Source: Euzebya tangerina (GTDB taxonomy: Bacteria; Actinomycetota; Nitriliruptoria; Euzebyales; Euzebyaceae). From it: a DNA stretch of 64,000 nt. The notes under the pieces were generated by a model. It was not told where the DNA came from. It saw only the letters and a program-made list of their open reading frames with translations, and did not search any database. The stretch spans positions 1,674,001 through 1,738,000 of the forward strand of contig NZ_PPDK01000001.1 in the NCBI RefSeq assembly GCF_003074135.1, read 5' to 3'. Position 1 is the first letter of the stretch. Every line of letters starts with the position of its first letter. Positions 9,194-29,568 of this stretch are shown piece by piece. A program made the position numbers and the translations under genes.

Positions 9194-9323
9194 GCGATTG
9201 GACACGATCGTGCAGATTCCCACGCATACGTGGGTTAGACCCCGATCGTGCGGGATAACCCGTGGGCGATTGGACACGATCGTGCAGATTTCCACACATA
9301 CGTGGGTTAGGCCCCGATCGTGC
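9194..9323. repeat. Two direct copies of a 58-bp palindrome-rich element
   Basis: Copies at 9194-9251 and 9266-9323 (72-bp period, 14 bases apart) differ at only about three positions. Each contains the 10-bp palindrome CACGATCGTG, an inner stem CCCACG/CGTGGG with a four-base loop (one pair lost in copy 2), and a second CGATCG near the end. They fill the gap between the DUF35 gene and the second CoA ligase. They could be paired operators, a transcript-processing or attenuation element, or a small repeat family. No third copy was seen in the window. Confidence 0.85.
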
Positions 9324-9358
9324 ACCACCACGGCGCAGCCGGTCGAGGGGACCGGCCG

Positions 9359-19188: not shown

Positions 19189-20391
19189 GTGGACACCCTC
19201 GGCCGTCTGGTCACCGTCGAGGACGTCCGGCGCCGGGCTCGTCTTCGGCTGCCGCGCATGGCCTTCGAGTTCGTCGACGGGGGTGCCGGCGACGAGGTCA
19301 CACTGCGGGCCAACCGGACCGCCTTCGAGCAGGTGTCGATTCAGCCGAAGGTGCTGACCGGCGTGTCCGACCGGGACCTCTCGGTCTCGGTTGTGGGACA
19401 GGAGCTGGCGCTGCCGCTGGTCTTCTCGCCAGCCGGGTTGCTCCGGGTCACTCACCCGGCCGGGGAAACGGCGGCCGCCGCAGCCGCCAGCGCAGCAGGA
19501 GTCCCGTTCACCTTGAGCACCGGGTCAAGCCGTTCCATCGAGGAGGTGGCGCAAGCAGGCGGGGATGGGTTGCGCTGGTTCCAGCTGTACTTGTGGAAGG
19601 ACCGGGCGGTCGTTGAGGGCTTGTTGGACCGGGCAGCTCGCGCCGGCTACTCCGCGCTCGTACTGACCGTCGACGTACCGGTCGTCGGGCAGCGCGACCG
19701 CGACATCCGCAACGGCATGACCCTGCCGCCCCGTCCGAACCTGCGGACCGCGCTCGACACCGCATGGCGGCCGTGGTGGTGGTGGCCGGTCCTCACGGGA
19801 GAGCCGATCACGTTCGCCAACTTCACCGATCTGGGCCTGGGAGAGTCGGTGACCGAGCTCGGCCGGTTCGTCAACACCGCCATGATCAACCCCGAGCAGT
19901 CGTGGGCGGATGTGGCATGGCTTCGCGAGCAGTGGACCGGCCCGATGCTGGTGAAAGGCATCCTGCGAGCCGAGGACGCGAGCCGCAGCGTGGACTGCGG
20001 TGCCGACGCCGTGGTGGTGTCGAACCACGGCGGCCGGCAGTTGGACGGCGCGCCGGCGGCCTTCGCCGTACTGGACGAGGTCGTCGGGGCCGTGGGTGGT
20101 CGGGCTGACGTGATCCTGGATGGCGGCGTGCGCCGCGGCGCCGACGTGGTCAAGGCGCTGGCGGCCGGAGCAGCGGCCGTCATGATCGGGCGGCCCTACG
20201 TCTATGGGCTGGCGGCGGGCGGTCAAGCGGGAGTCGCTCGTGTGCTCGAGATCTTGAGTGGCGAGATCGACCGGACCTTGGCGCTGACCGGCTGTCGCCG
20301 CGCCCGCGATCTGGATCGCAGCTTCCTGCTCGATGCTCGGTTGAACTCCCGGCAATCAGCCGTTGACGGTGCCCGATCGACCCCCCTATGA
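19189..20391 (+). CDS. FMN-dependent alpha-hydroxy-acid oxidase/dehydrogenase
   Basis: A 400-residue TIM-barrel flavoprotein of the glycolate oxidase/lactate dehydrogenase/mandelate dehydrogenase family. Marks are FEFVDGGAGDE, the FMN-binding barrel strands, and the catalytic SNHGGRQLDG, in which His is the base, followed by the phosphate site GGVRRGADVVKAL and GRPYVYGLAAGG. It oxidises an L-2-hydroxy acid to the 2-keto acid. GTG start three bases after the synthetase stop. The presence of an oxidase in a transporter operon suggests that the solute or a product carries an alpha-hydroxyl group. The gene end overlaps the -10 box of the next promoter. Confidence 0.9.
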   Translation: MDTLGRLVTVEDVRRRARLRLPRMAFEFVDGGAGDEVTLRANRTAFEQVSIQPKVLTGVSDRDLSVSVVGQELALPLVFSPAGLLRVTHPAGETAAAAAASAAGVPFTLSTGSSRSIEEVAQAGGDGLRWFQLYLWKDRAVVEGLLDRAARAGYSALVLTVDVPVVGQRDRDIRNGMTLPPRPNLRTALDTAWRPWWWWPVLTGEPITFANFTDLGLGESVTELGRFVNTAMINPEQSWADVAWLREQWTGPMLVKGILRAEDASRSVDCGADAVVVSNHGGRQLDGAPAAFAVLDEVVGAVGGRADVILDGGVRRGADVVKALAAGAAAVMIGRPYVYGLAAGGQAGVARVLEILSGEIDRTLALTGCRRARDLDRSFLLDARLNSRQSAVDGARSTPL

Positions 20392-20392
20392 T
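20363..20392 (+). promoter_or_regulatory. Strong sigma-70-type promoter for the binding-protein gene
   Basis: TTGACG (20363-20368), an 18-base spacer and TATGAT (20387-20392) match the bacterial consensus closely. It lies over the end of the oxidase gene, so the binding protein can be made from its own transcript at a higher level than the membrane subunits. The operator at 20407 is immediately downstream of the expected start point. Confidence 0.7.
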
Positions 20393-20406
20393 CCGGCTAG
20401 TAGCCA

Positions 20407-20424
20407 ACCAAACAACCGGTTGGT
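20407..20424. promoter_or_regulatory. Operator site 3 of the shared 18-bp palindrome
   Basis: ACCAAACAACCGGTTGGT lies between the TATGAT -10 box and the ATG at 20448. Its arms ACCAA/TTGGT are fully symmetric. This site is downstream of the transcription start, a roadblock arrangement that differs from the other sites. Confidence 0.75.
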
Positions 20425-20447
20425 CAAACGAGTCGAGGAGACGACCG

Positions 20448-21848
20448 ATGCTCAAGAGAAAGATGCATCTGCTGGCCCTGTTGGCAGTGTTTGCCCTGAT
20501 CGCCGGCGCCTGCAGTTCCGGCGACGATGGGGACGACGGGGGTTCCGACGACACAGAAGAGACCTCGGACGACGGCGGCGATGACGGCGGGGATGATGCT
20601 GCCGCGGACGACGGTGGCGATGACGGCGGTGACGACGGGGCCGACGACAGCGGTGACGAGGGCGGCAGTACGGCGGAGGTCCCCGACAACCCCGACGTGG
20701 GTGTGGAGTCCGACGTCATCCGCATCGGCTGGATGGGTGACGCCACCGGACCGACCGCCTCGGCGCAGGCCTTCAACCTGACGGGCGCGGAGGCAGCGGT
20801 CGCCTGGTACAACGAGAACGGCGGTGTTCTTGGCCGACAGCTCGAGCTGGTGGTGAAGGACGACCAGTTCTCCGCCGAGACGGCAACCACGAACTACGCC
20901 TCTCTCACCCAGGACGACGGCATCATCGCGATCGTCCAGATGGGCGGCTCGCAGATCTCCACTGCGCTGATGGCCAACGTCGAGGAGGACGGCGTCCCGG
21001 TTATCAGCCTGCCCCAGACCATCGACATCCAACTCGATGTTCCGAGCGCCTACAACAACATCGCGCACTACGGCGATGAAGCCCGCGTGGCTGTGGCCTA
21101 CGTCGGCGAGCAGCTCGGCAGCGTCGAGGACGCGGTCATGGCTGTTGTCCAGCTGGAGCTGCCTTCGGGTGATGAGTGGGATGTCTACATCCAGGACGCG
21201 TTGGAGCAAGGCGGCGGAACCTACGCCGGACGCGTGTTGCTGAACCCGGGCTCACCTGACTATGCGGGCGCGGTCACGCAGATCCAGGAGCTGATCAACA
21301 ACGACGGCGTCAACTACCTCGCCATCCACGGTGCGCCGTCCCACGGCCTCGGGTTCGTGACGGAGATGGTCGCCAACGGCATCGACACGCCGATCGTCGG
21401 CATCCACGGCATGGCAGGTGGTGCGATCTACCAGGAGGGTCCACCGGAGGCCGCCGACCTGATCCGCGGCGTGCACTCCTTCCTCCCGGCCACGAGTGAC
21501 TGCGAGACCTGTGAGGTCATCCGTGAGTTCGTCGCCGGAACGGAGTGGGAGGACGACATCATCGAGCTCAACTTCTCCGACGGCTGGCAGGACATCATGA
21601 TCACCGTCCAGGCCATGGAGCGGGCTGCTGAGGCAGATGGCGAGCTGACGTGGGAGACCATGAACACGGCGCTGAAGTCTGCCCCGTTCGACACCGGCGG
21701 CCTGACGTGTGAGGTCGACTGGACCACGAGTCAGCACAGTCCCTGTGCGGCACCGTTCGAGTGGACCGGTGACAGCCTCGTGGCGGTTGGCGGCTTCGAT
21801 GCCTACAGCGACGCCATCGTCGAGGAGTACGGCCTGCTGGAGAGCTGA
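20448..21848 (+). CDS. LIV-type ABC transporter substrate-binding lipoprotein
   Basis: A 466-residue lipoprotein: MLKRKM, a hydrophobic run, and the lipobox AGAC with the Cys anchor near residue 21. A spacer of about 55 residues made almost only of Asp, Gly, Glu, Ser and Ala follows, then a type I periplasmic-binding fold (IRIGWMGDATGPTA, GAEAAVAWYNENGGVLGR). The ATG at 20448 is preceded by GAGGAG. It delivers solute to the LivHMFG channel encoded just upstream. A strong terminator follows. Confidence 0.92.
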   Translation: MLKRKMHLLALLAVFALIAGACSSGDDGDDGGSDDTEETSDDGGDDGGDDAAADDGGDDGGDDGADDSGDEGGSTAEVPDNPDVGVESDVIRIGWMGDATGPTASAQAFNLTGAEAAVAWYNENGGVLGRQLELVVKDDQFSAETATTNYASLTQDDGIIAIVQMGGSQISTALMANVEEDGVPVISLPQTIDIQLDVPSAYNNIAHYGDEARVAVAYVGEQLGSVEDAVMAVVQLELPSGDEWDVYIQDALEQGGGTYAGRVLLNPGSPDYAGAVTQIQELINNDGVNYLAIHGAPSHGLGFVTEMVANGIDTPIVGIHGMAGGAIYQEGPPEAADLIRGVHSFLPATSDCETCEVIREFVAGTEWEDDIIELNFSDGWQDIMITVQAMERAAEADGELTWETMNTALKSAPFDTGGLTCEVDWTTSQHSPCAAPFEWTGDSLVAVGGFDAYSDAIVEEYGLLES

Positions 21849-23705: not shown

Positions 23706-25460
23706 TCAGCCCTCCAGGACTCGAGCGAAGGCCTCCTCCAGCCACTCGGCTCGAACGTTGCGGTTGACCGGTATGTGGGCGAGCAGCGGCCCGGTCAGGT
23801 CGGCGGCTCGTGCAGCCAGGTCGTCCAGCGCGTCGATCGAGTCGACGAGCACGGCTTGCGCACCCAAGCGGGCGGCAACGCCGGCCAGGTCGACGGACGC
23901 GAACAGCGACTGCTCGTCGGGGAGGTCGAGCATGCGCAGGAAGTGCATCTCGGCGCCGTAGGCCCGGTCGTCGAACACCAGGATCAGCATCGGTATGCGC
24001 GCTCGGACCGCGGTGTCGAGGTCTCCCAGGCTCATCATCAGCCCGCCGTCGCCGATGGCGAGGACCATCAGCCGGTCGGGGCTGCCCACGGCGGCCCCCA
24101 TGGCCGTGCCGAGCCCCAGGCCGACGGCGCCGAAGTCCAACGCGAAGGCGAAGGCGTCAGGACGTGGCACCGAGAGATACCCGGCGGGGAAGCCGCAGAA
24201 GTGACCGCCGTCGGTGACCACCGAGCGGCGTCGGGGCAGGAGGGCGTCCAGCCGAGCGCACACCGTTCGGGGGTCCAGGCCGTCGGGTCCGCTGGCGTCC
24301 TCGTGGGCCGTGGCCAGGTCGAAGGTGTCCAGCCGTCGTCGGATCTCGGGGGTGCGGTAGCCGGTGGTGGTGGCCGGCAGCCGGTCGAGGAGTGCGGCGG
24401 CGGTGGTGGCGGCGTCGCCGACCAGGCCGACTTCGGCGGGGGTGTAGGCCCCGATGGCCTCGGGGTCGATGTCGACGTGAATCAGCTGGGTTGGTGGCCG
24501 GAAGAGATGGCCGGCCTTGTTGGTGAAGGAGTTGACGCTGGCACCGAGGACCACGACGACGTCGGCGTCGGCGATCAGTTCGGCGCCGAGCGGCGTCGCG
24601 AGGCCGCCGCAGATGCCGACGGACCAGGGGTGATCATCGAACCAGCTCTTGCCAGGCAGGGACGTTGCGAGCAGGGCGCCGATCCGGTCGGCCAGGGCCA
24701 CCGCCTGTTGCTTGGCGCGGCTTCGGATGGCGCCGCGGCCAGCCAGGACGACCGGGCGCTGGGCGGAGCGGAGGAGTTCGACGGCAAGGTCGAGGGCTCG
24801 GGAGTCTGCGTGGCCCCCACCTGGGTCAGGTTCCCCGCGAGGAGGTGAGGTTCCCCGCGACGAGGTGAGGTTCCCCACCCGGGGCATAGGGGTGCCGGGG
24901 ACCTGATCGGGCTCAGGAGAGGTGGCGGTCCAGCCCCTGTCGCCCAGGACTTCGGCCACCGACGGTCCGGAGTACTGCTCGTCCTGCACGTCGGTCGGCA
25001 TCGAGATGGCGACCGGACCGGGTCGGGTCAGGGCCAACTCGATGGCGGCGGCAACATCGGCGGCGGCCGTGGTCGCGCCGAACGACTGCACCGGCACCCC
25101 GGCCGCGGCGAACAGGGCGTCCTGATCGCAGTCTTGCGGAAGGCCCGGTACGGCGTTCGGTGTGTTGCCGGCCAGCAACACGAGCGGCGTACGAGCCTTG
25201 CGAGCCGATATCAGGGCCGTCAAGGCGTTGGTCACCCCCGGCCCCTGTGTGACGGTGCAGATCCCCACACGCCCGCTCATCCGGGCGTACCCGTCGGCCA
25301 TGGCGATGGCGGCCGACTCGTGTCGGGTCCCGATCACACGGACCCCGAGCTGGCTGGTCAGGTGGGGGATGAGGCGCAGGTTCCCATCGCCCATGAGCCC
25401 GAAGACGTCGGTGACGTCGTGGGCGACCAACGTCTCCGCCACAGCCTCGAAAACCTTCAT
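23706..25460 (-). CDS. Thiamine diphosphate-dependent enzyme (acetolactate synthase/benzoylformate decarboxylase-like)
   Basis: A 584-residue three-domain TPP enzyme. The PYR domain has VFGLMGDGN and TRHESAAIAMADGYAR with the activating Glu, the central domain has VVLAGRGA, and the PP domain has AIGDGGLMMS. The metal-site partner usually read as NN is DD here (LVFDDRAYG). Between the PYR and central domains (about residues 193-210) three copies of the 20-bp repeat are translated as a Gly/Ser/Pro-rich insert. I take the ATG at 25460, because the longer N-terminus to 25514 would overlap repeat DNA. Likely carboligation or decarboxylation of a 2-keto acid, which fits the alpha-hydroxy-acid oxidase in the same regulon. 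Confidence 0.85.
   Translation of the reverse strand: MKVFEAVAETLVAHDVTDVFGLMGDGNLRLIPHLTSQLGVRVIGTRHESAAIAMADGYARMSGRVGICTVTQGPGVTNALTALISARKARTPLVLLAGNTPNAVPGLPQDCDQDALFAAAGVPVQSFGATTAAADVAAAIELALTRPGPVAISMPTDVQDEQYSGPSVAEVLGDRGWTATSPEPDQVPGTPMPRVGNLTSSRGTSPPRGEPDPGGGHADSRALDLAVELLRSAQRPVVLAGRGAIRSRAKQQAVALADRIGALLATSLPGKSWFDDHPWSVGICGGLATPLGAELIADADVVVVLGASVNSFTNKAGHLFRPPTQLIHVDIDPEAIGAYTPAEVGLVGDAATTAAALLDRLPATTTGYRTPEIRRRLDTFDLATAHEDASGPDGLDPRTVCARLDALLPRRRSVVTDGGHFCGFPAGYLSVPRPDAFAFALDFGAVGLGLGTAMGAAVGSPDRLMVLAIGDGGLMMSLGDLDTAVRARIPMLILVFDDRAYGAEMHFLRMLDLPDEQSLFASVDLAGVAARLGAQAVLVDSIDALDDLAARAADLTGPLLAHIPVNRNVRAEWLEEAFARVLEG
24829..24876. repeat. Three copies of the 20-bp GGTTCCCC repeat inside the TPP enzyme gene
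   Basis: GGTTCCCC cores begin at 24829, 24849 and 24869, exactly 20 bases apart, with GAGGTGA between them. This is the same unit as in the CoA ligase gene at 28.9-29.1 kb. The first copy is preceded by GTCA in both places. The insert is in frame and falls in a linker between domains. Confidence 0.9.
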
Positions 25461-25527
25461 GGGTGTGCCGACCCTCTCTGTCGCTCGAGGGCCCACCTCC
25501 ACCTCATGGCGCACCTCGCTCTCTGGT

Positions 25528-25575
25528 GGGGAACCTGACCTCGTGGTGGGGAACCTGACCTCGTGGCGGGGAACT
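25528..25575. repeat. Three copies of the 20-bp repeat in an intergenic gap, opposite orientation
   Basis: GGGGAACC cores at 25528 and 25548 and a diverged GGGGAACT at 25568, 20 bases apart, lie between the TPP gene start and the SnoaL-like gene end. The spacer is GACCTC(G) rather than CACCTC(G). This array is inverted relative to the two arrays inside genes. Confidence 0.85.
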
Positions 25576-25589
25576 TGGCCATCGACCCG

Positions 25590-26147
25590 TCACCGGGGTA
25601 GCCCTGGGGCCAGGGGAAGCTCCGCCGGCGCCGGATCCGTCCCGGGCCAGCGCTTCCGGTTCGACTCCGCCAGCCCGGTCTGCAGGTCCGCCAACGGCAT
25701 CGCGTAGAGCTGCTGGACCACCCGCTCGCGGAACCGCCACCTCGCCTCGCCGTCGCCCTCCGCGCTGAAGACATAGGTGTCGTTGTACCGGAGGGCGATC
25801 ATGACCGTCTCCTCACCGATGGCGAGCTCGGCGTGGGCCGCGACCACACCGGTCGCCGTCCCGTCGTCACCGAACTCGAGGACCTGCGAGTGCGGATAGT
25901 GATAGGTCGCGCCGAACATGTCGGTGCGGTGCCGGTAGTAGGCGACGACCGGCTCGCGACCCTCGATCCGACCCTCGACGGAGTCGAACACCGCGTCCTG
26001 GGTGTACATCGCCTCCACGGCATCCCAGTCCCGGTCGTCGACCGCCATGGCGTAGCGCGCGGCCAGCTCCTGCAACGCCGCTCGGTCCTCCAGGCGGCGG
26101 ACGCGTGCCTCGAGGTCGGGGGTCCCTTCAGCAACGGAGCCGCTCAC
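25590..26147 (-). CDS. SnoaL/NTF2-like fold protein
   Basis: A 185-residue protein with the cone-shaped SnoaL-like pattern: LEDRAALQELAARYAMAVD helix, DWDAVEAMYTQDAVFD, an IEGREPVVAYYRH strand-helix, and a mixed sheet with 'HAELAIGE'. Such proteins act as isomerases, cyclases, dehydratases or ring-hydroxylation-linked subunits. The GTG at 26147 overlaps the aldolase stop (GTGA); a GTG at 26156 is the alternative. Its tail is Pro/Gly-rich and extends past the normal domain. It is one of three SnoaL-like genes in the presumed regulon. Confidence 0.78.
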   Translation of the reverse strand: MSGSVAEGTPDLEARVRRLEDRAALQELAARYAMAVDDRDWDAVEAMYTQDAVFDSVEGRIEGREPVVAYYRHRTDMFGATYHYPHSQVLEFGDDGTATGVVAAHAELAIGEETVMIALRYNDTYVFSAEGDGEARWRFRERVVQQLYAMPLADLQTGLAESNRKRWPGTDPAPAELPLAPGLPR

Positions 26148-26830
26148 GCCGCCCACCCCTCGCCCGCAGCCGCCACGTGCCCCCGGCCCTTCCGTCGGAC
26201 CAGCCCCCAGGTATGGGTGAGGTAATCAGCCCGGGTCACGAGGTCCTTCACCCGCCCGACCATCTCCTCCTCCATCTCGGGCGCCCCGGTCGGGGTGATG
26301 CGGACGTCGAGCTCTGCGGCGTACTCCAGGGTCACCATCAGCGACACGGCCGGCCCCAGCCGCTCGTGGACGGTGATGGCGCCGTGGTATGGGATGAGCA
26401 CGGTGTGGTTGTCGCCCAGGGCCGGCCCGACGGACTCGAAGTCGTCATCCGGACACATGGCCGTCTCACCGGCGAAGAAGCTGGCCAGGTTGTGATAGGT
26501 CCTCGGCGGCCGGGCCATGGCGCAGAGCGCGGTGATCCACGGGCCGTGGGTGTGCACGATGGCGTTCACGTCGTCCCGCTCGGCGTAGATGCCCTGATGG
26601 AAGTCCGCGCCCAGGCTGATGGTCCGGTCGCCGTCGACCTGGTTGCCGTCGAAATCGATCTGGACGACGTCGTCAGGCGTCATCTCCTCGAACGTCTTGT
26701 CGAGCACATTCATCCAGAACGTGTCGGAGTCCGGGTCGCGCATCGAGACGTGACCACCGATCTCCGAACCCAGGCCGTAGGTCGCGAGGCCCCGACAGGC
26801 CAGCGCGATGTCGTGTTGTGGTGTGCTCAT
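26144..26830 (-). CDS. Class II aldolase/adducin-like protein
   Basis: A 228-residue protein of the L-fuculose-phosphate aldolase fold: GLGSEIGGHVSMRD at the N-terminus, the zinc pair HTHG near residue 94, and a C-terminal YHGAITV strand. Members are zinc-dependent aldolases, epimerases or decarboxylases; in catabolic clusters they often cleave or decarboxylate a keto/hydroxy acid. It overlaps the following SnoaL-like gene and sits 45 bases after the SDR gene. Substrate unknown. Confidence 0.82.
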   Translation of the reverse strand: MSTPQHDIALACRGLATYGLGSEIGGHVSMRDPDSDTFWMNVLDKTFEEMTPDDVVQIDFDGNQVDGDRTISLGADFHQGIYAERDDVNAIVHTHGPWITALCAMARPPRTYHNLASFFAGETAMCPDDDFESVGPALGDNHTVLIPYHGAITVHERLGPAVSLMVTLEYAAELDVRITPTGAPEMEEEMVGRVKDLVTRADYLTHTWGLVRRKGRGHVAAAGEGWAA

Positions 26831-27729: not shown

Positions 27730-29568
27730 TCAGCGGGTGATGGTGAAGTCCGTGGTCTCGCGGTCCCAGGTGTCCGGGGTGATCCCGTCCTCCCGCAGCC
27801 GGTACTTCTGGATCCGTTGGGACGGGGTCTTCGGCAGCTCGGCCAGCAGTCGGACGTAGCGGGGGACGGCGAAGTGGGCCATGTGGTCGTTGCAGAACCG
27901 CACCAGGTCGAGGGGATCGAGGTCCGCGTCCGGGCGCGGGACGACGGCGACCATGACCTCCTCCTCCGAGAGCTCGGAGGGCACCCCGTACGCAGCGGAC
28001 TCGATGACGTCGTCGTGGGTGTTGATGACCCGCTCGACCTCGAAGGAGGAGATGTTCTCGCCGCGCCGTCGGATGGCGTCCTTCATGCGGTCGATGAACG
28101 TCACGTAGCCGTCGGCGTCCATGCGTGCGCGGTCGCCGGTGTGGAACCACAGGTTGCGGAAGGCGTGCAGCGTCTCCTCGGGCATCCCGTGGTACTCGCT
28201 GATCATCACATCCGGGTACTTGGGGCGGACCACGATCTCGCCGGCCACGTCGACATCGCAGACGTTGTCCTGCTCGTCGTGGATCTCGACCTCGAAGTGC
28301 GGCGAGGGTTTGCCGCAGGTCCCGATCCGGGTGTCGTCGAGGGTGTTCTGGAGGGAGATGGAGGTCTCCGTCATCCCGTACACCTCGATCAGGCGGAGGC
28401 CGAATCGCTGCTCGAAGTCCTCCCAGATCTCCACGGGTGCGGGGGCTCCGAAGGCCCGGGTGACCGGGTTGTCGGCGTCGTCTGGCTGCGGCGGCTGCTT
28501 CATCAGCATCGTGAGCAGTGCGCCCTGGTAGTTGAAGGCCGTGATGCCACGGTCCCGACAGGTCTGCATGAACCCGCTGGCGGAGAACCGGTTGTCCATG
28601 ATCAGGCTGGCGTCGGCCACCATGGCCGCGAGGACCGAGGTGTACTTGGCGTTGATGTGGAAGAGGGGGAAGACCGTGTAGAGCAGGTCGTCCCGTCCGT
28701 AGCGGCACAGCCACGCCGTATGCCGTGCGGCCATCAGGTTCATCCGGTGGGACAGCACGACCCCTTTGGAGGGGCCCGTGGTGCCGGAGGTGTAGAGGAT
28801 CACCGAGGGGTCGGAGGCCGAGAGGTCGGCCCGCCAGGCCGGACCGTCGGCGTACAGGTCCTCCAAGGCGTGGAGCGTCATTCGTGGCGGGAGACCGGTG
28901 TCGGTCAGGTTCCCCGCGGGAGAGGTGAGGTTCCCCGCTGGGAGGTGAGGTTCCCCGCCGGGAGGTGAGGTTCCCCGCTGCGAGGTGAGGTTCCCCGCTG
29001 GGAGGTGAGGTTCCCCGCCGGGAGGTGAGGTTCCCCGCTGCGAGGTGAGGTTCCCCGCTGGGAGGTGAGGTTCCCCGCCGGGAGGTGAGGTTCCCCGCTG
29101 CGAGGTGAGGTTCCCCGCCGCGTCGGTCGGGCTCCCCGCGTGGACGATCACATGGCGGAGGTCGGGGAGATCTTCTGCGATCTCGGCGACCCGGGGCAGG
29201 TACTGGGCGTCGCAGACCAGGGCGGTCGCCCCCGACTGGCTGATGATCCAGGTCAGCAGGTAGCCGCGGTTTGCGGTGTTGACGGGCACCTCGACCACGC
29301 CGGCCTTGCAGAGGCCGAACCACACGTCGATGTTCGCGACATCGTTGTCCATCATGAGGCAGACCCGGTCCCCGGCTTCCAGACCCAGCTGGCGTAGACC
29401 GGCGCTGATCCTGTCGGACCGCTCGTGCAACTCGGCGTAGGTCCGGGTCAGGCCCGCCACCTCTACCGCCACGCGGTCGCCGCTGCGCTCGGCCGACTGC
29501 TCGATCATGGCACCCAGCACCCACGGGGCGTCGGCGGGTGTGCCGTAGGGGTCGCTGGTGGCGCTCAT
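27730..29568 (-). CDS. Acyl-CoA ligase (CaiC-like) with a tandem-repeat insertion
   Basis: A 612-residue AMP-forming ligase, about 70 residues longer than its close paralogues because eleven copies of a 20-bp repeat are inserted in frame at about residues 148-220. Since 20 is not a multiple of three, the repeat is read in three frames in turn, giving a 20-residue period rich in Gly, Pro, Ser and Thr. Core motifs are intact: YTSGTTGPSKG near residue 258, EVYGMTETS, LWFHTGDRARMDADG and DRMKDAIRRRGENISSFEVE. ATG at 29568 is preceded by GAGGTGG. The insertion lies before the nucleotide-binding loop and probably forms a flexible surface loop. Confidence 0.9.
   Translation of the reverse strand: MSATSDPYGTPADAPWVLGAMIEQSAERSGDRVAVEVAGLTRTYAELHERSDRISAGLRQLGLEAGDRVCLMMDNDVANIDVWFGLCKAGVVEVPVNTANRGYLLTWIISQSGATALVCDAQYLPRVAEIAEDLPDLRHVIVHAGSPTDAAGNLTSQRGTSPPGGEPHLPAGNLTSQRGTSPPGGEPHLPAGNLTSQRGTSPPGGEPHLPAGNLTSPAGNLTDTGLPPRMTLHALEDLYADGPAWRADLSASDPSVILYTSGTTGPSKGVVLSHRMNLMAARHTAWLCRYGRDDLLYTVFPLFHINAKYTSVLAAMVADASLIMDNRFSASGFMQTCRDRGITAFNYQGALLTMLMKQPPQPDDADNPVTRAFGAPAPVEIWEDFEQRFGLRLIEVYGMTETSISLQNTLDDTRIGTCGKPSPHFEVEIHDEQDNVCDVDVAGEIVVRPKYPDVMISEYHGMPEETLHAFRNLWFHTGDRARMDADGYVTFIDRMKDAIRRRGENISSFEVERVINTHDDVIESAAYGVPSELSEEEVMVAVVPRPDADLDPLDLVRFCNDHMAHFAVPRYVRLLAELPKTPSQRIQKYRLREDGITPDTWDRETTDFTITR
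28908..29116. repeat. Eleven-copy 20-bp tandem repeat inside a CoA ligase gene
   Basis: GGTTCCCC cores occur at 28908 and then every 20 bases from 28929 to 29109 (the first gap is 21). Variable positions (CTGGG, CCGGG, CTGCG) themselves recur with a 60-bp period three times, so the array grew by duplication of a 60-bp, frame-preserving block. Confidence 0.95.

Follow-up and report, generated by a model that had tools for sequence, protein, structure and literature searches.

Why does the coding sequence of a TPP-dependent enzyme in Euzebya tangerina hold a short tandem repeat, and why does an acyl-CoA ligase gene in the same 64,000-nucleotide stretch of DNA (the window throughout) hold the same one? 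A first-pass annotation had described three in-frame copies, 60 bp in all, between the first two domains of the TPP enzyme, and had taken them for a small mobile or gene-converting repeat and not for simple slippage. The features concerned are the following.

23706..25460, minus strand: TPP-dependent enzyme gene (TPP_enzyme_N, _M, _C, by Pfam and structure alignment), host of the first array.
24824..24876, plus strand: first array, in the TPP-enzyme gene, three GGTTCCCC cores at a 20-bp step.
25524..25580, minus strand: second array, in opposite orientation, in the gap that separates the TPP gene from the SnoaL-like gene upstream of it.
25590..26156, minus strand: SnoaL-like gene, its stop 9 bp from the second array.
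27730..29568, minus strand: acyl-CoA ligase gene (AMP-binding), host of the third array.
28903..29118, plus strand: third array, eleven cores, inside the acyl-CoA ligase gene.

In the TPP-enzyme gene, the GGTTCCCC cores start at 24829, 24849 and 24869 on the plus strand and span 24829-24876; their units are led by GGTCA, GGTGA and GGTGA, and the minus strand codes for a RVGNLTSSRGTSPPRGEPDPG-type linker. The three cores are in frame as first described, but the repeat covers 53 bp, less than three full units (Tandem Repeats Finder: 24824-24876, period 20, 2.7 copies, 93% matches). The minus-strand open reading frame (23706-25514 from a GTG, to 25460 from an ATG) stays open across the array, which encodes residues 195-214 of the 584-residue protein. 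Pfam places TPP_enzyme_N at residues 1-113 and TPP_enzyme_M at 224-357, confirming that the insert lies in the linker between these domains, and the alignment to the best-aligned solved structure has a gap from 159 to 226. The orthologues of three congeners (G001, G002 and G003) are 65-71% identical by pieces and have no insert in the protein alignment. Counted by eye on that alignment, the linker is about 32-37 residues longer here than in the three congeners; the array accounts for about 20 of these residues, leaving 12-17 that it does not explain. Most likely, the array is a tolerated passenger that lengthens the linker.

The window holds three arrays of one 20-bp unit, one in the TPP gene, one in the neighbouring gap and one in the acyl-CoA ligase gene. 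It contains 17 matches to GGTTCCCC where 3.7 were expected, a number reached in none of 100 shuffles. The second array, which the first annotation did not mention, consists of two exact cores and one changed core (AAGTTCCCC). The third is a 60-bp block of three units, present three times with the reading frame preserved, and aligned homologues of the ligase (47-50%) are without this insert of about 72 residues. Two unrelated proteins do, as proposed, carry the same DNA repeat, and the common lead-in holds as well: GGTCA is identical in the TPP gene (24824-24828) and the ligase gene (28903-28907). These five bases are the last of the unit and precede the first core in most arrays. The refuting case named at the outset, orthologues with the same linker sequence at the protein level, did not arise: neither the three congener TPP orthologues nor the ligase homologues have it. 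The linkers between cores differ among the three arrays of the window. Rfam gave no match in the window.

The genome-wide search at 20-base spacing that the annotation had suggested uncovered a dispersed family. Its unit is a 20-bp consensus, GGTTCCCC-RCSRC-GAGGTSA, which may also be written GGTTCCCCRCSRCGAGGTSA, or (GGTTCCCCACCACGAGGTCA)n in tandem form. Over the whole genome (4,780,058 bases, 12 contigs), adjacent pairs of cores at a 20-bp step were found 120 times (64 on one strand, 56 on the other), and core triples 81 times; a reversed-pattern control over the same 4.78-Mb genome gave no pair. We placed at least 45 arrays of two or more units, with lengths from 2 to 12 units; since 100 of the 155 GGTSAGGTTCCCC places were listed, the 45 may lack some short arrays on contigs C2-C12. 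Single GGTTCCCC sites showed no excess in 400 kb away from arrays (13 versus 18.6 expected).

Within the unit, variation is concentrated at positions 9, 11, 12, 13, 18 and 19. Changes from the array majority affected 6 of 992 core sites, a figure flattered by the finding of arrays through exact cores, and 96 of 992 linker sites. When the core was masked and units were found through their GAGGTCA flanks, 35 of 40 kept GGTTCCCC and five had one change. With array limits set by non-core positions only, differences affected 63 of 1136 core sites and 96 of 1136 linker sites; most of the 63 come from boundary units with plain flanking DNA in the place of the core, and about 18 are true changes by hand count. 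Overall, the core is conserved perhaps five times better than the linker. Linkers vary more between arrays than within them, and the core is kept in every unit while linkers drift, which a purely neutral passenger fails to account for. Conservation of this kind calls for a core that is recognised, and suggests recognition by a putative protein, either for spread or for a host function. CRISPR arrays have unique spacers of about 30 bp between their repeats; only about 5 variable bases separate the kept parts here. We also rejected a structured RNA: folding beats shuffles moderately and on one strand only (z of -3.0 and -1.5), and no paired changes were apparent by eye.

We next considered where the arrays sit. 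According to gene calls from a crude codon model of our own, 44 arrays divide into 15 in convergent gaps, 14 in co-directional gaps, 2 in divergent gaps, 11 inside genes and 2 at contig ends; the single-core places L065, L068 and L070 and the array at C3:83797 (fetched later and unclassified) stand outside the 44. The background, 464 kb with 425 gene pairs, comprises 71 convergent, 287 co-directional and 67 divergent pairs. Convergent gaps are clearly enriched (15 of 31 placed intergenic arrays versus 71 of 425 gene pairs, p = 4e-5), and divergent gaps are depleted (p = 0.007, with gaps of at least 30 bp as the reference). In 13 of 14 co-directional gaps, the array is closer to the stop than to the next start (median 17 versus 68 bp). 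Once the array is subtracted, the median length of the 15 convergent gaps is 28 bp, compared with 29 bp for convergent gaps at large, which is the outcome expected of simple insertion into ordinary gaps. The placed arrays show mild clustering (8 pairs within 8 kb versus 3.2 expected, p = 0.016), and yet neighbours are not significantly more alike than distant arrays: over 7 bp, arrays within 12 kb of each other differ by 1.55 bases on average and distant ones by 1.84 (p = 0.24). Local seeding was rejected on this ground. The same comparison, with the differing linkers of the window arrays, argues against the conversion between loci that had first been suggested.

About one quarter of the arrays (11 of 44) lie in genes, mostly in interdomain linkers. 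The array separates the catalytic from the anticodon domain in a valyl-tRNA synthetase (41 residues between aligned blocks versus 14 in 1gax), the finger from the HhH domain in a DNA polymerase III alpha-type protein, and the two domains of an epimerase-SnoaL fusion; it precedes the nuclease domain of a UvrD-type helicase, and an AMP-binding enzyme is also among the hosts. Outside linkers, it divides or borders a domain in L071 (3HCDH) and L070 (queuosine synthesis), and stands near the N-terminus in L064 and L067. Copies confined to a single frame read GGEPD in six genes (including L074, whose placing is uncertain) and GNLT in three; they never use the third frame, in which a TGA arises from the GGTCA variant. 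In the window, the 20-bp copies pass through all three frames and carry the GGTGA variant, which gives no TGA there. On the coding strand, 9 of 11 in-gene arrays read GGGGAACC (p = 0.07). Because in-gene arrays are read in different frames and strands, they have no protein motif in common: the repeat acts as a DNA element and not as a protein motif, and it shows clearly how proteins can acquire linker sequence from such an element. These arrays were recognised by their open frame, which shows how copies survive and not, by itself, that selection acted.

Who else carries the repeat? Not one adjacent pair was found in 60 other genomes from genus to class, the three congeners included. A looser pattern, GTTCC four times at a 20-bp step, occurred in 2 of 396 genomes of the phylum, one of them this genome. 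In a collection of 84,980 species, from which the organism's own genome may be left out, the core triple matched only three stretches, in unrelated organisms; one is a stray match on a Xylanibacter rodentium contig (L033:1972-2019), where a 20-bp array has a unit of roughly GGGGAACCTTGAACGATAAC. The array was found in no viral contig, plasmid record or phage record. Searched by exact unit strings, the literature gave no paper on a repeat among the matches listed, which came from the shortest string only; searched by topic, it gave no description of this 20-bp family among the matches listed. Candidate dispersed families in congener G003 were rejected, as the 13-mers that recur over 380 kb appear to reflect coding bias. 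Congener gaps at the same loci (L219 and L151 in G003, L158 in G001) hold unrelated local tandem duplications of about 16-21 bp, as judged by eye.

Comparison with the congeners also revealed empty sites. The gap at L039 has a clean empty site in G003, and the co-directional gap at L063/L218, 197 bp long with its array here, measures 73-115 bp and is array-free in all three congeners. Arrays are thus clean insertions without gene loss in 2 of the 5 comparable gaps, these being the intergenic arrays for which orthologues of the neighbours were found. The other three hold a CMD-like gene in the congeners (638 bp between the neighbours in G001), 2.1-3.5 kb (all three) and 4.1 kb (G001), so that gene content differs at 3 of 5 array gaps versus 1 of 17 array-free gaps (p = 0.024). 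We infer that these genes were lost here and not gained in the congeners. The CMD-like gene, so named by us from its sequence, directly precedes the TPP gene in the congeners; it is absent here (window 25460-25590), the second array stands in that place, and the gene was not found elsewhere in the window. A dispersed family, its absence from relatives and the empty congener sites together make the repeat a lineage-specific dispersed tandem repeat, seen in one species of its group, and not a product of local slippage.

A second family came to light through another of the three stray triple matches (L031). This Microbacterium draft genome (G418) has 114 adjacent GAGRTGGTG pairs at a 20-bp step, and the reversed control gave none. 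Across 20 stretches of this genome, 9 of the 19 arrays that could be placed were convergent versus 5 of 57 other gene pairs, and four more arrays lay at contig edges. All 21 centres are the facing palindrome CGAGRTGGT-N-ACCAYCTCG, none reversed; at L198:2848-3149, facing blocks surround CGAGRTGGT-N4-ACCAYCTCG. No viral contig holds the G418 array, and there was one weak plasmid match. The two families share the 20-bp step, dispersed arrays and a preference for convergent gaps, but differ in the kept part, which is CGAGRTGGTG in G418, and in its facing blocks round a palindrome. As the query imposed the 20-bp step and one GGTTCCCC array, we do not claim common descent and regard the Microbacterium family as a parallel.

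How does the Euzebya family compare with known repeats? REP, BIME and REPIN sequences are small dispersed palindromic repeats that favour the 3' side of genes and are moved by a RAYT transposase. The present family is likewise small, dispersed and found preferentially on the 3' side, but its unit is a direct repeat and not a palindrome. Nor does it show the terminal inverted repeats and target-site duplications of MITEs or Rickettsia palindromic elements. The lengths of 2 to 12 units and the 60-bp block of the CoA ligase suggest, from this one strain, a dispersed minisatellite or VNTR in the general sense.

The closest known kind is the STAR elements of Staphylococcus. These, like our family, are GC-rich direct repeats at dispersed places, with a conserved motif and spacers particular to each locus (PMC3532100); their loci differ between species and their copy number varies in place, and the locus-specific spacers and species-specific loci (no pair in 60 relatives) recur here. 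The STAR motif has a 14-bp consensus, T(G/A/T)TGTTG(G/T)GGCCC(C/A); the motifs stand at least 40 bp apart, with recurring sequence between them, and are described as intergenic (PMC3532100). Unlike this, the unit here is GGTTCCCCRCSRCGAGGTSA, the step is 20 bp with about 5 variable bases, 11 of 44 arrays lie in genes, in frame, and convergent gaps are preferred. The authors leave the spread of STAR elements unexplained and argue against recombination between loci (PMC3532100). Rickettsia palindromic elements also enter unrelated genes in frame as dispersed DNA elements and lengthen the protein, but are palindromic and about 150 bp long, not direct 20-bp repeats in arrays (PMC10969869); and the TAACTGA intergenic direct repeats of Beggiatoaceae are likewise many short direct-repeat sets scattered patchily over a genome, but their heptamers lie just upstream of start codons, whereas the present arrays lie behind stop codons (PMC4679880).

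All together, we consider it probable, with real room for doubt, that the arrays form a lineage-specific, dispersed, STAR-like family of short tandem arrays that acts at the DNA level and spreads by copying, growth in place and selection. A few units would be copied into a new place, with no need of target duplication or fixed ends, and the copying would most likely take place during repair of broken DNA. Slippage or unequal exchange would then add or remove whole units where the array stands, and purifying selection would remove copies from promoters and domains and leave those behind stop codons and in linkers. The core would be recognised by a protein, for spreading or for a host function. 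Array ends fall at many unit positions, although in nearly all arrays GGTCA or a variant of it precedes the first core and RC(C) follows the last; target duplication was not seen (flanks share 3.20 bases versus 3.28 in shuffled pairs), and no donor-recipient pair of arrays could be identified. Insertion during repair is favoured by these varying ends, the unduplicated flanks, the unlikeness of neighbours and growth in place; it is our best guess for the copying step, and a tentative one. Of the mobility first proposed, dispersal is borne out; with variable ends and no target duplication, the arrays give no sign of a transposition-like event.

The value of this family is that it makes the question of how small bacterial repeats spread without a known transposase testable with a handful of strains: among close relatives only one species has it, there are empty sites, the filter on surviving copies can be read (stop-free frames, linkers and stop codons), and a link to gene loss is apparent.

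Alternatively, the arrays could be functional sites. Every GGYNAGGTTCCCC unit, spaced about two helical turns from the next, would be bound by a host protein, and the arrays would act at gene ends, for instance as transcription road-blocks, convergent-gene insulators or nucleoid sites, the in-gene copies being tolerated strays. The kept core and strict 20-bp step beside varying linkers, the preference for convergent gaps and stop codons, and the near lack of single sites, as if arrays were needed, all agree with such a role. However, roughly one array in four is intragenic, the motif pairs are missing from all three congeners, the positions are equally explained by avoidance of harm, and no function is common to the co-directional and the in-gene arrays; we therefore find this reading unlikely, if worth keeping in mind.

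Movement of the units by a transposase acting in trans, REP/RAYT-like or MITE-like, would accommodate the dispersed copies in both orientations, the empty sites and the facing copies within 70 bp of each other, which occur at four places only. The unit is nevertheless a non-palindromic direct repeat, with variable ends and no visible target duplication, and we judge such movement improbable. Equally hard to favour is the idea of an undescribed actinobacterial class of dispersed 20-bp arrays, formed as scars of gene loss, with units kept by a dedicated protein and the Microbacterium family as an independent case. Units would be added at broken DNA ends, and arrays left at gene-loss junctions, gene ends and protein linkers. 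This would be analogous to the interstitial telomere repeats of eukaryotes, which form by unit addition at broken DNA ends.

Could the repeats be made by a template-copying, telomerase-like reverse transcriptase and then be joined into breaks? The single PF00078 reverse transcriptase of the genome (L165:5469-6791, G000:C2:257469-258791), retron-like by PADLOC models, has two arrays at 2.2 and 3.9 kb and, in its upstream region, a GGTTCCCC close to a GGTGA (L165:5279, minus strand); G002 and G003 lack such an enzyme. By our own estimate, however, an array falls within 3 kb of any given gene by chance in about 5% of cases (45 arrays, 4.78 Mb); the upstream motif belongs to a different hairpin, a single template would give one linker and not many, and G001 has reverse transcriptases yet no arrays. 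Rfam gave no match near the gene. We regard its proximity to two arrays as a lead only, and the reading itself as very improbable. Finally, independent local slippage or a common protein repeat in separate genes is hardly credible, since growth in place, visible in the tripled 60-bp block of the CoA ligase, cannot put one 20-bp unit at 45 loci, and a protein repeat would not be read in different frames and strands; the early dismissal of simple slippage holds for this dispersal, but inside an array slippage or unequal exchange is real, as the same block attests.

Some further repeats and array ends were noted. Contigs C2 and C4 both start inside arrays (G000:C2:1-73 and G000:C4:3-90) that share a rare linker (ACGGGTCGGTCA) in matching orientation, and are probably adjacent contigs that the assembler separated at a single long array. 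Another short tandem array, with an 18-bp unit, TGGCCACCCCAGAACGGA, in 3.9 copies, lies at L130:9694-9773 (G000:C1:409694-409773). The window also has an imperfect tandem repeat at 9205-9324 (period 38, about 3.3 copies) and, at 20568-20666, an Asp/Gly-rich low-complexity stretch with 12- and 39-bp periods, near the N-terminus of the protein encoded by ORF 20388-21848, which looks like a secreted binding protein.
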